NCBI GenBank assembly: GCA_030445745.1
Contig: JASUTE010000020.1
Coordinates: 1 to 34,495, forward strand
Reading direction: 5' to 3'
Origin: Candidatus Cloacimonadota bacterium
GTDB lineage: Bacteria > Cloacimonadota > Cloacimonadia > Cloacimonadales > TCS61
Length of the DNA: 34,495 nt
The first letter of the stretch is position 1. Each line of letters opens with the position of its first letter. Positions 3,123 through 9,784 of the stretch are shown piece after piece. The notes under the pieces were generated by a model, which was given only the letters and a program-made list of their open reading frames with translations, was not told where the DNA came from and made no database searches. The position numbers and the translations under genes were made by a program.

Positions 3123-3226
3123 CTTTGTCCTCCTTTTTAGTTTGATGTATTTTTATTTTTATACTCTTGATTATTCTCTTTCCTTGTTTTCTTACTTATT
3201 TTTTTTCTGTTTAAACAAATCCAGGA

Positions 3227-5859: not shown

Positions 5860-5884
5860 CTTTACCTCTCCAAAATCTTACCGA

Positions 5885-6006
5885 TAATGTTCATCGTACG
5901 CTGCGGAATCAGCATGATTCCGCCATGAAACGAACCAACCAAAGTTTGAATCGGTACGATTCAGACGAAACGGACTGATAACACCAACCCGCAGGTGCAC
6001 ATGTTA
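5885..6006 (-). other. Putative integron attC site
   Basis: The outer arms are 5885-5906 (plus strand TAATGTTC...GCTGCGG) and 5989-6006 (CCGCAGGTGCACATGTTA). They are an imperfect inverted repeat beginning and ending in TAA/TTA with unequal arm lengths. This is the layout of attC R and L boxes with bulged bases. Inside are two hairpins sharing GAATC/GATTC arms: GGAATC/GATTCC at 5905-5921 and GAATC/GATTC at 5948-5962. The site follows the stop of one single-gene unit (6065) and precedes the next. Its outer end (ACATTATCGG on the minus strand) is shared with the sites at 6694, 351 and 7951. Confidence 0.65.
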
Positions 6007-6064
6007 TGGGCAACAAGTTCAAATTATTCATAAATAAAACTTCAAAAATATGACTATTTATCAA

Positions 6065-6664
6065 TTATAAATAATAATCTCTTTCTTCTATTAAAAAAAC
6101 AGTGAGATCAAGAATTTTATCTTTCAATTTTGGAAATTTAAGAATTGTTTCTATAATTTCATCAAATAAAACTCTTTCATTTTTACTTAGCTTAAAATAC
6201 GCTTTATCACTAACATTTATCTCGTTTAAATTACTTTTCCATTTAGATATTTCTCTACTGTATTTATTGTATTGAAGCTCTTCTTTATAGTTCATTTCAG
6301 GTTTAGAATTGCTCCATCTATCAAGTTCTTTTTTAAATGAATCTATATCTACAAATTGTTCAACCCTTGGTTTATTTTTGTAATATTCTTTTTCAAACTT
6401 AATAAATTCATTATAAGACTTAAATTTTAATTTATTTATATCTGGCTTACTTCTTTTGCTAATTACACAGAAATCAATGATATACTTCATTAATACATTT
6501 CTCTCTTCTTGAGTAATTTCATTATTCATTGAATTTGAAAATTCTTCAATTTCATCAAGAAGTATTTTTACATTAATTTCCAAGTTAGTCATTTTTTCTT
6601 TTCTCAAATTTACTTTTGATCTATTACCTATCAAATAATATAACAGATATGCAAGGATATTCAT
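6065..6664 (-). CDS. Unknown 199-residue protein in a cassette-like unit
   Basis: I do not recognise this gene. The product opens with a short hydrophobic segment (MNILAYLLYYLIG) and is otherwise charged and helical, rich in K, E, N and I. It has no conserved cysteines and no nucleotide-binding or nuclease motif that I can see. AAGGAG seven bases before the ATG at 6664 is convincing; a second ATG at codon 25 (MTNLEINVKI) has only a weak site. The gene is framed by the two best attC-like sites (5885-6006 after it, 6694-6819 before it), so it is the clearest complete cassette in the window. Base composition is very AT-rich. Confidence 0.7.
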   Translation of the reverse strand: MNILAYLLYYLIGNRSKVNLRKEKMTNLEINVKILLDEIEEFSNSMNNEITQEERNVLMKYIIDFCVISKRSKPDINKLKFKSYNEFIKFEKEYYKNKPRVEQFVDIDSFKKELDRWSNSKPEMNYKEELQYNKYSREISKWKSNLNEINVSDKAYFKLSKNERVLFDEIIETILKFPKLKDKILDLTVFLIEERDYYL

Positions 6665-6693
6665 GATTTATCTCCTTAACTTTGAGTTGCCCG

Positions 6694-6819
6694 TAATGTT
6701 TTGCGTGTGTTGCGGAATCAGAATGATTCCGCCCAAAGCAAACTGACCAAACCCTGAATTCGGCAGCTGCCGAATCAGGAAAAAGCCACTGACCAGCCCT
6801 ACCGCAAACACGCCTGTTA
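6694..6819 (-). other. Putative integron attC site (best example)
   Basis: The outer arms 6694-6715 (TAATGTTTTGCGTGTGTTGCGG, given here as TAATG...TTGCGG) and 6802-6819 (CCGCAAACACGCCTGTTA) pair imperfectly. The minus strand begins GCATAACAGGCGTG and ends ACATTACGGGC. Inside are GCGGAATCA/TGATTCCGC (6712-6732, 9 bp) and a long hairpin at 6753-6779. In the long hairpin CCTGAATTCGGCAG pairs with CTGCCGAATCAGG apart from one extra A, which is the extrahelical-base pattern used by integron integrases to choose a strand. The outer arm ends seven bases from the stop of the HEPN gene, as in compact cassettes. Confidence 0.7.
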
Positions 6820-6825
6820 TGCACA

Positions 6826-7929
6826 TTAATTATCAAAGCTTATCTCTTTATTGCTTATATAAGATTCAATAAATTGCTTTAATGTATTATTACAACTTCT
6901 CAATTCTTTTTCATCAATTTGACTTGAACTGTTATGAGAACATTTTGCTCTTAATCTTGAAGCTTTTTTTATCGCGTTATCTATGTATTCTCTTTTTAGA
7001 TTATTTTTTAAATTTAGAATGTTTTCAACAATTAAATCATTTTTGGTTTTATCTTTTAAATTGGGCAGTTGTTTTTTTATTATCTTGGATTTGTCATTGC
7101 TAATATTTTCATCGATAAATTGAACAATTTGTTTTTGCTCATCACTTGTAAACAAACTATTGCTTTTACCACTAAAAAAAGTTTCGATTGTTGACCATAA
7201 TGAAATTAATGATTGTTTTGCTGTAATTGAAGTTAAAGATTGATTAAGTCCAACAAGAGCAGCATATAGATTTTCATCTTTCTTAGAAATTTTAAATAAT
7301 TGCATTGATTTATCAATTTCTATTTTTTTTATATTTTTGTGAATTTCACCAATAGAATATGAAATATTTGTGTTGTTTAATTCTGCGCAAGAAATGTGTC
7401 GGATATTAATACCTAATTTATTTACGTATGATATATTATTACAAAGCCTGATTAAAAAATCTTTACCTAATTCTTTTGTTAATTCAACAGTCTTTGTTAC
7501 AGTAAATTCTTTAGAAATTATTAATTCATTGGAATCATCTAAAAAGATTTTCAAATTATGTTTTTTACTATATTCTTCAAAATCTTTAGGAAATGAAAAT
7601 CTTCTAACAGGTCCAATTAAATCAACGTAAGCATTCAGTACAATTTTCTTTGCTTTGTACAAACTCCTTTTGAAATCGCATAATTGATTATAGAGAATAT
7701 TTTGATTAACTAATATTACGTGAGTATTATTGTTTTCTTGAAGTATTGCCATAAAATCATACTCATTAGAATATTGCTGTATCTGAGTAGTGTAATTTTC
7801 TAAACCAAAAACAAAAAGACATTCTCTGCTTTTATTAAAAGTTTTCAAATTAAATATCTCGGTAAAAATAAATGTCTCTTTTTTTCTAATTACTGAGATG
7901 TCGTTGAAATAAAACTTTATATGTCTCAT
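6826..7929 (-). CDS. Putative HEPN-domain protein (ApeA-like C-terminus), candidate RNase
   Basis: The 367-residue product has an N-terminal half of alternating strands (1-200) without a motif I can name. The helical C-terminal third carries LISLWSTIETFFSG (241-254), typical of the first helix of ApeA/Abi-type HEPN domains. RLRAKCSH (325-332) contains the R-x4-H signature of HEPN ribonucleases (R327, H332). A closing helix follows (LRSCNNTLKQFIESYI). HEPN proteins cleave RNA in toxin-antitoxin, abortive infection and CRISPR systems; that this one is a defence effector is inference. The start ATG at 7929 has only a weak GAGA-type site. It sits between the palindromes at 6694-6819 and 7951-8030, first in the array after the integrase fragment, the best expressed place in an integron. 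No separate antitoxin is evident. Confidence 0.6.
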   Translation of the reverse strand: MRHIKFYFNDISVIRKKETFIFTEIFNLKTFNKSRECLFVFGLENYTTQIQQYSNEYDFMAILQENNNTHVILVNQNILYNQLCDFKRSLYKAKKIVLNAYVDLIGPVRRFSFPKDFEEYSKKHNLKIFLDDSNELIISKEFTVTKTVELTKELGKDFLIRLCNNISYVNKLGINIRHISCAELNNTNISYSIGEIHKNIKKIEIDKSMQLFKISKKDENLYAALVGLNQSLTSITAKQSLISLWSTIETFFSGKSNSLFTSDEQKQIVQFIDENISNDKSKIIKKQLPNLKDKTKNDLIVENILNLKNNLKREYIDNAIKKASRLRAKCSHNSSSQIDEKELRSCNNTLKQFIESYISNKEISFDN

Positions 7930-7950
7930 ATTTTTTATTCTCTCTTATGC

Positions 7951-8030
7951 CGATAATGTCTGCATCCCCGAAATTTGTCGCGAACACCTCCTAATTTGGG
8001 GTTATATGCGACAGTTGTCGCGGATATCAC
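7951..8030 (-). other. Putative integron-type recombination site (palindrome downstream of integrase fragment 2)
   Basis: This is the copy-2 counterpart of 351-424. TGTCGC pairs with GCGACA, and CCCC pairs with GGAGG around AAATTA. The minus strand ends in GACATTATCGGC, nearly identical to the ends of the sites at 5885 and 6694. Lying between the integrase fragment and the first gene, it is the natural place for an attI or first attC site. Confidence 0.5.
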
Positions 8031-8037
8031 TTTTAGA

Positions 8038-8301
8038 TTATTTTTCATTTTTATTTTCACTATTTTCTATATTTAAATTATCCAAAGGACTGATAATTCT
8101 ATTTTTTGCTACGTGTGTAACATGCGTATAAATTTCAGTGGTTTTACTGCTCTTATGTCCCAATAATTCCTGAATATATCTTAAATCTGTTCCATGCTCC
8201 AACAGATGAGTTGCTAAACTATGACTTAAAGTGTGTATTGTTGCTGGTTTATTTATTCTGCTTTTCAAGACTACAGCTTTCACTTTTTTATCGTTATTCA
8301 T
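8038..8301 (-). pseudogene. Integron-integrase-like C-terminal fragment (copy 2), catalytically broken
   Basis: This is the same recombinase fragment as at 435-725, ~87 residues here. HTLRHS has become HTLSHS, so the conserved box II arginine is lost; LLGHKS and the nucleophilic tyrosine in EIYTHV remain. The leader that opens copy 1 at TTG (equivalent position 8325) is cut by a TGA at 8304-8302. Only the ATG at 8301 remains, and it lacks a close ribosome binding site. The GGGGAGG site at 8336-8330 is still present but serves the dead leader. This copy is more decayed than copy 1. Confidence 0.7.
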
Positions 8302-8354
8302 TCAAACTTTTGTTTCAACACTCAAAAAACCTCCCCAATAACAACACAGCCAAG

Positions 8355-8380
8355 AGTTTAGTTATATTAGCATCTGTCAA
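8355..8380 (-). promoter_or_regulatory. Promoter of integrase fragment copy 2
   Basis: TTGACA (8380-8375) is retained from copy 1. The spacer has shrunk to 14 bases and the -10 box is TAAACT (8360-8355). It is likely weak. In an intact integron this promoter could also read into the array. Confidence 0.35.
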
Positions 8381-8450
8381 ACAAAAAAGAATATTTATAT
8401 AGGTTAAAATTATTTGAAAATATAGCGGGCACTCAAAATAACGAGAATAA

Positions 8451-8484
8451 AATAAAAACCCTGATTTTTTAAAAACCAGGGTTT
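8451..8484 (-). terminator. Terminator after kbl (repeat copy 2)
   Basis: AAACCCTG (8456-8463) and CAGGGTTT (8477-8484) pair perfectly, and on the minus strand the stem is followed by TTTTATTTTATTC. A second hairpin with G-U pairs, formed by the AGCTCTCGC and GCGGGGGCT strands (8497-8521 region), lies between it and the kbl stop. The pair ends transcripts of the tdh-acpS-kbl unit. Confidence 0.75.
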
Positions 8485-8540
8485 ATAAGCATACTAAAGC
8501 CCCCGCAAGTAGCGAGAGCTTTTTTCTTACTATTGTTTTC

Positions 8541-9767
8541 TTACTTATTTTTATACTGTTTCAACACACCCAGAACATAGTCGATATCTGCTTCTGTGTG
8601 GTCTGCATTGATTTGGAAACGGATCTCTTCGTCGCCCTTGGGAACAACTGGGAAATTAAGACCGGTTGCCAACACACCATTTTCGGTAAGATAATTCACT
8701 AAATCGGTTGTTTTTGCTGTATCGCGCACCATCAAGGGTACTACAGGATGGTCACCCGGAATAGTTTCATAACCCAGTTCAATTATTCCCTGCTCGAATT
8801 TCTTGGTCATTTTATGCAGATGTTGCAATCTTTTCTGTCCTTTATCGGAATCGAGTATTTGTAACACTTTTAAAGCTGCGGCAGCTTCCGAACAGGTAAT
8901 GGGATTAGAATAGATATACATTGGTGCTGTTTCATGCAGATATTCTACTAAAGTTTTAGAACCAACTACATAACCACCATTTACCCCAAAAGCTTTACCC
9001 AAAGTTCCTACCAAGATATCCACTTTAGCGCCAGTATATTCTTCGGTTCCCCGGCCAGTTTTGCCAAAAGCACCTACTCCGTGGGAATCGTCCGTTATGG
9101 TAATAACACCTTCTTCAAATTTGTCTTCAAATTCTTTGCAAATGGGAACTAATTCATTGAAAGGAGAATTATCACCGCGCATACTAAAGATGCCATCTGT
9201 GATAACCAAACAACGTTTACCTTGACCAACTGCTTCCTGCAGTTTGGCTTTCAAATCTGTCATATCATTGTGTTTGTAAATATATTTTGCAGCTGGACGA
9301 GAAAGTCGTATCGCCTGGATGATGCAATTATGATTGAGTTCATCGCTAATTAAAACTGTTTCTTTGGTTGTAAGTGGATAAATAACTCCCATGCTAGTAA
9401 CATAAGCCGAGCTAAACAACATAGCAGCTTCTTTACCGTGAAATTCGGCAAGCTTAGTTTCCAAATCTATATGAGGACGGTGAGTACCACTAATAAAACG
9501 TACTGCGCCAGGACCTACACCATATTTATGAGCTGCTTTTTCTTCAGCTTCAATTACCTCAGGTAACATCGACATGCCCAGATAGGAATTAGCATTCATC
9601 TTGATGAATTCTTTATCTCCATGGCCATTAATGATATAACGTGGCCCTTTATCACCTTGCGCTTTAATGATTTTTTCAATAATCATTTCAGGGCCTTTAT
9701 CACGCCCAGATTCTCGTAAATCTTCCAAATTTTTCTGTAAAACTGCATTTAGCTTTTTCAAACCCAT
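8541..9767 (-). CDS. kbl: Glycine C-acetyltransferase (2-amino-3-ketobutyrate CoA ligase)
   Basis: A 408-residue PLP enzyme of the alpha-oxoamine synthase family. It shows SFNP-like substrate-loop sequence NSYLGMS (60-66), FSSAYVTSMG for cofactor stacking (~118-127), DDSHGVGAFGKTGRG with the ring-nitrogen aspartate (226-240) and TLGKAFG with the Schiff-base lysine K258. Beside tdh, the natural role is cleavage of 2-amino-3-oxobutanoate with CoA to glycine and acetyl-CoA, the second step of threonine breakdown. Other family members (BioF, HemA, SPT) are possible by sequence alone, but context favours Kbl. I start at the ATG at 9767, which has GGAGG six bases before it. The ATG at 9779 overlaps that site. 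It follows acpS by 17 bases and is closed by the repeat's terminators. Confidence 0.88.
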   Translation of the reverse strand: MGLKKLNAVLQKNLEDLRESGRDKGPEMIIEKIIKAQGDKGPRYIINGHGDKEFIKMNANSYLGMSMLPEVIEAEEKAAHKYGVGPGAVRFISGTHRPHIDLETKLAEFHGKEAAMLFSSAYVTSMGVIYPLTTKETVLISDELNHNCIIQAIRLSRPAAKYIYKHNDMTDLKAKLQEAVGQGKRCLVITDGIFSMRGDNSPFNELVPICKEFEDKFEEGVITITDDSHGVGAFGKTGRGTEEYTGAKVDILVGTLGKAFGVNGGYVVGSKTLVEYLHETAPMYIYSNPITCSEAAAALKVLQILDSDKGQKRLQHLHKMTKKFEQGIIELGYETIPGDHPVVPLMVRDTAKTTDLVNYLTENGVLATGLNFPVVPKGDEEIRFQINADHTEADIDYVLGVLKQYKNK

Positions 9768-9784
9768 CTTAACCTCCATTTTTT

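Follow-up and report, generated by a model that had tools for sequence, protein, structure and literature searches.

Whether the gene at positions 6826-7929 of the window, a 34,495-nucleotide stretch of contig JASUTE010000020.1 from a Candidatus Cloacimonadota bacterium, encodes an RNA-targeting HEPN ribonuclease carried by an integron is the question raised by this locus. The gene, singled out by a reading made from the letters of the DNA alone, is an open reading frame of the minus strand that begins with ATG and specifies 367 amino acids, and it is AT-rich, with a G+C content of 24% compared to 37% for the window. Comparison with its sole homologue yields a dS of 1.36, a dN of 0.18 and a dN/dS of 0.136, and within this two-copy comparison the ratio is much alike in every segment of the gene. 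Judged by these values, purifying selection acts on the gene, which is thus genuine and was functional at least until recently.

The claim that the gene occupies the first position of a cassette array has been borne out by analysis of its surroundings. Adjoining its 5' end are a truncated integron integrase, represented by an 87-amino acid C-terminal remnant (8038-8301, minus strand; TIGR02249 positions 244-315, E 1.9e-26) in which a serine replaces the arginine of the HxxR motif (HTLSHSL), and, between this remnant and the cassette, an attI-like stretch (7947-8030, minus strand). Each of these elements has a counterpart elsewhere in the window: a sister copy of the remnant at 435-752, which keeps the HxxR arginine, and a near copy of the attI-like stretch at 345-420, the two attI-like copies diverging just after ACATTATC. 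The truncated integron module is thus present twice (345-917 and 7947-8523), with about 580 bases in common at 84% identity that include the attI-like stretch, the integrase C-terminus and a repeat upstream of the remnant; since the truncation point is the same in both copies, it is probably the truncated form itself that was duplicated. A search of the genome revealed no integron integrase above the cut-off of the model, and the other matches to this model are full-length open reading frames, probably of the Xer type. A stretch of about 100 bases just upstream of the remnant (8294-8392) recurs at 80-82% on three other contigs of the genome (copies L034, L035 and L036) and constitutes a dispersed intergenic repeat.

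On the 3' side of the cassette, after the stop codon, is an attC-like site (6690-6822, minus strand) for which the pairing of the ends is significant relative to shuffles (p 0.008) and fold z-scores range from -3.2 to -3.8. A second attC-like site (5881-6011, minus strand) shares one 47-base arm with the first at 79% identity, and its end pairing alone is not significant (p 0.32). Of the cores of the 6690-6822 site, one is CATAAC (GTTATGC on the plus strand) and the other is ATTAC, not GTTRRRY; read on the minus strand, both sites have an ATTAY-type R' end and CATAAC at the other end. The ATTAY-type core may be a recombination core particular to this lineage; alternatively, the sites may run opposite to the genes. 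Together, the adjoining integrase remnant and attI-like stretch and the attC-like site located 3' of the gene identify it as a first-position cassette of a decayed integron. The genes of the array, all on the minus strand, encode the 367-amino acid protein, a 199-amino acid orphan with a hydrophobic start (second cassette, 6065-6664), a cupin, a DUF4282 protein and a methyltransferase; no defence genes adjoin the 367-amino acid gene, and among the 125 genomes of the phylum the 199-amino acid protein is absent from all others, including that of the homologue. A 41-base direct repeat (88%) is found at both edges of the array (3184-3224 and 8533-8573) and overlaps the gene at 8541-9779 at its 3' end; it may be a trace of the way in which the array was inserted.

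Among approximately 740 sampled genomes (125 from the phylum and about 600 from elsewhere), a single full-length homologue was identified, 70% identical over 366 residues and located in a different genus within the same family (locus G072:C331). The neighbours of the homologue differ from those of the 367-amino acid gene and similarity between the two loci stops at the cassette ends, so that the gene is mobile as a unit. The stretch preceding the start of the homologue (...CGGGGACACATACATTATGTCC) resembles the attI-like end of the window cassette (...CGGGGATGCAGACATTATCGGC), and in both copies a CATAAC core lies within about 15 bases 3' of the gene. The differing neighbours, the attI-like 5' end and the shared 3' core thus show that the gene has moved as a cassette, and by this comparison it has passed between genera. 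The genome of the homologue also contains two complete tyrosine recombinases in tandem (L021:7458-9524), which are its best matches to the integron integrase model, yet fall below the cut-off. No meaningful homologue of the protein was found in two scans of GTDB contigs, or among viral contigs, plasmids and phages (those scans that were pattern-based reach close relatives only), and further phyla (14, 341 and 3 genomes) contained none. Weak matches in three genomes (G117, G089 and G115) are short, with E values of 0.006-0.09, and a weak match in a fourth (G007) was rejected as a relative, being located inside an open reading frame that we take to be REP-transposase-like. Within the collections covered, the protein constitutes an orphan family.

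The proposal of a HEPN nuclease was originally prompted by an RxxxxH motif, which occurs exactly once in the protein, as R327-x4-H332 (RAKCSH; 6934-6951, minus strand), and by an LWSTIETFF helix, found at residues 244-252. Among composition shuffles of the protein, 18% carry one RxxxxH or more and 6% have one within the last 130 residues; by itself, therefore, the motif is weak evidence. Both R327 and H332 are kept in the homologue (RGKCSH), and the R, K, C, S and H of the motif are unchanged although the segment that holds it, residues 313-367, otherwise drifts and is only 53% identical between the two copies. The best conserved part of the protein, residues 205-260 (82% identical), contains E249 (7183-7185, minus strand), an acid within predicted helix 2 (LWSTIETFF) that is likewise present in both copies; the argument from conservation for all of these residues is one of two sequences. 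The acid of HEPN helix 2 typically lies in an Ex3[KR] motif, present in many families, and the position four residues after E249 is S or G, not K or R, so that no Ex3[KR] is formed. For the superfamily as a whole, an Rx4-6H motif has been described in which the residue after the arginine is polar, mostly N, D or H, though not universally so (PMC3710099). The spacing of R327-x4-H332 agrees with this description, and the polar residue is lacking, the position being occupied by A here and by G in the homologue.

That the C-terminal third is helical is predicted in both of two single-sequence structure models, at very low confidence (mean pLDDT 36 and 42, pTM 0.22 and 0.26). DSSP on these low-confidence models places helices within residues 205-367 (6829-7317, minus strand) at about 216-233, 237-253, 313-332 and 340-360, with a helical insert at 262-311, and a hydrophobic-moment test reveals clear amphipathicity in helices 2 and 4 only. 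HEPN domains, four-helix up-down folds, have the layout H1-H2-insert-H3-H4, in which H3 ends in RxxxxH and H2 bears an acid (PMC3710099), and the helix order predicted in both low-confidence models fits it: H1-H2-helical insert-H3-H4, RxxxxH closing H3 and the acid in H2. The joint fit of predicted helix order, helix 2 acid and motif position counts against a chance motif, and we consider it somewhat more likely than not that the C-terminal region is a HEPN domain.

Database comparisons have not placed the protein in any established family. Neither copy matched a HEPN family from Pfam, NCBIfam or PADLOC at E up to 10, or any PHROGs family, and sequence searches of the PDB yielded no supporting chain. 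A Foldseek search returned nothing significant, and is meaningless as evidence given that the query was a low-confidence model. A PADLOC Cas5_IIId match was rejected, as its E value changes from 0.0054 with the C-terminal piece to 0.2 with the whole protein, and as it consists of 13 bits in the tail of a 679-position profile and is absent with the homologue; PDB matches to 9viw (bacterioferritin) and 9lm7 (E 0.1-1.5, varying by query) were likewise discarded. The N-terminal approximately 200 residues (7330-7929, minus strand), 74% identical between the two copies, have no relative in Pfam or PDB, in keeping with the earlier impression that they match nothing.

The sequence-only reading had gone further in assigning the protein to HEPN ribonucleases of the ApeA/Abi type. 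Of that assignment, the cassette setting, the motif and its conservation and a HEPN-compatible helix order have stood, while membership in the ApeA/Abi type has not. An hhalign comparison with eight collected ApeA HEPN domains gave a score of 9.2, where column shuffles reach 23; the single local match places RAKCSH on RNYLVH, in RxxxxH register. All eight collected ApeA proteins (PF18739) contain R[ND]xxxH, in contrast to the R[AG]KCSH of the 367-amino acid protein and its homologue. Like ApeA, the protein consists of an N-terminal domain and a predicted helical region at the C-terminus, in which one helix carries an acid and a later one ends in RxxxxH, but its N-terminal domain is another, longer one and the PF18739 profile is not matched. 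By every test made, the protein is not a member of the ApeA family.

Other HEPN systems also offer parallels. HEPN domains in integron cassettes have been on record since 2013 (PDB 3jrt; Anantharaman et al., PMC3710099), and the presence of a HEPN-type motif on an integron gene cassette is shared with the 3jrt family; that family, however, is listed from Gammaproteobacteria, whereas the present protein comes from Cloacimonadota, and no such PDB chain was recovered at E up to 10 with either the protein sequence or two-row profiles. Defence by a single HEPN protein is exemplified by DS-11, which combines CBS and HEPN domains and needs its catalytic residues (PMC13092281). If the HEPN reading holds, the 367-amino acid protein would similarly join a sensing part and a HEPN nuclease in one chain, though the CBS domain of DS-11 was not found in it.

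Our best guess is that the cassette encodes a stand-alone, single-protein HEPN-type ribonuclease serving defence or dormancy, and the full working model is given a probability of roughly 0.5. HEPN ribonucleases are typically dimeric (PMC13092281), and in their chemistry the histidine activates the 2'-OH while the arginine provides support (PMC3710099). Under the model, the C-terminal third would fold as a HEPN four-helix domain and dimerise, thereby bringing two RxxxxH sites together in a metal-independent ribonuclease with E249 nearby. The orphan N-terminal residues would restrain the nuclease and sense a trigger, either stress or a product of the phage; the released enzyme would then cut RNA of both host and phage, and growth would stop. 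A candidate role in phage defence would agree with existing knowledge of integron cassettes.

Several other explanations must be weighed against this model. The protein may be an unrelated helical cassette protein with another function, such as binding or regulation, and the RxxxxH a chance match; support from databases for HEPN is zero, the comparison with the ApeA profile is at chance, the polar residue after the arginine is absent and the shuffle frequencies given above (about 6% C-terminal, 18% anywhere) are those of this very composition. Such an account is harder to reconcile with the retention of R, K, C, S and H where residues 313-367 drift, and with a helix order, helix 2 acid and motif position that are jointly HEPN-like, albeit in low-confidence models, and we regard it as doubtful, if far from implausible.

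Alternatively, the protein may be a HEPN ribonuclease that acts in stress or dormancy as a toxin, or that stabilises the cassette array, which in fold and chemistry is a special case of our best explanation. A dormancy role has been proposed for integron-cassette HEPN proteins (PMC3710099), and defence neighbours are absent here; nonetheless, no partner antitoxin is apparent, the 199-amino acid cassette lacking a relative in the genome of the homologue and the neighbours of the homologue being different ones. We regard a role of this kind to the exclusion of phage defence as rather unlikely. It is highly improbable that the 367- and 199-amino acid genes form a two-cassette toxin-antitoxin pair: although the cassettes are neighbours and share a strand, a separate attC-like site belongs to each, and the 199-amino acid protein is restricted to this genome within the phylum sample. 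Because the homologue lies without the 199-amino acid neighbour, amid other genes, a one-gene system is likelier than such a pair.

Should the stand-alone HEPN ribonuclease reading be correct, the protein would be an orphan member of the already known integron-borne HEPN kind, equipped with a new N-terminal domain. That it instead founds a HEPN family so far unrecognised, namely as a one-gene, integron-borne, phage-triggered ribonuclease whose first 200 residues form a new kind of sensing domain, is a speculative and improbable extension of the same idea. In either case, a HEPN ribonuclease at this locus would mean that its N-terminal domain is a new trigger module and that the family has been wholly missed by present profile libraries. 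The setting of this possible new HEPN family is a little-sampled phylum, and decayed chromosomal integrons have in their cassettes a reservoir of small defence and toxin systems that consist of one gene.
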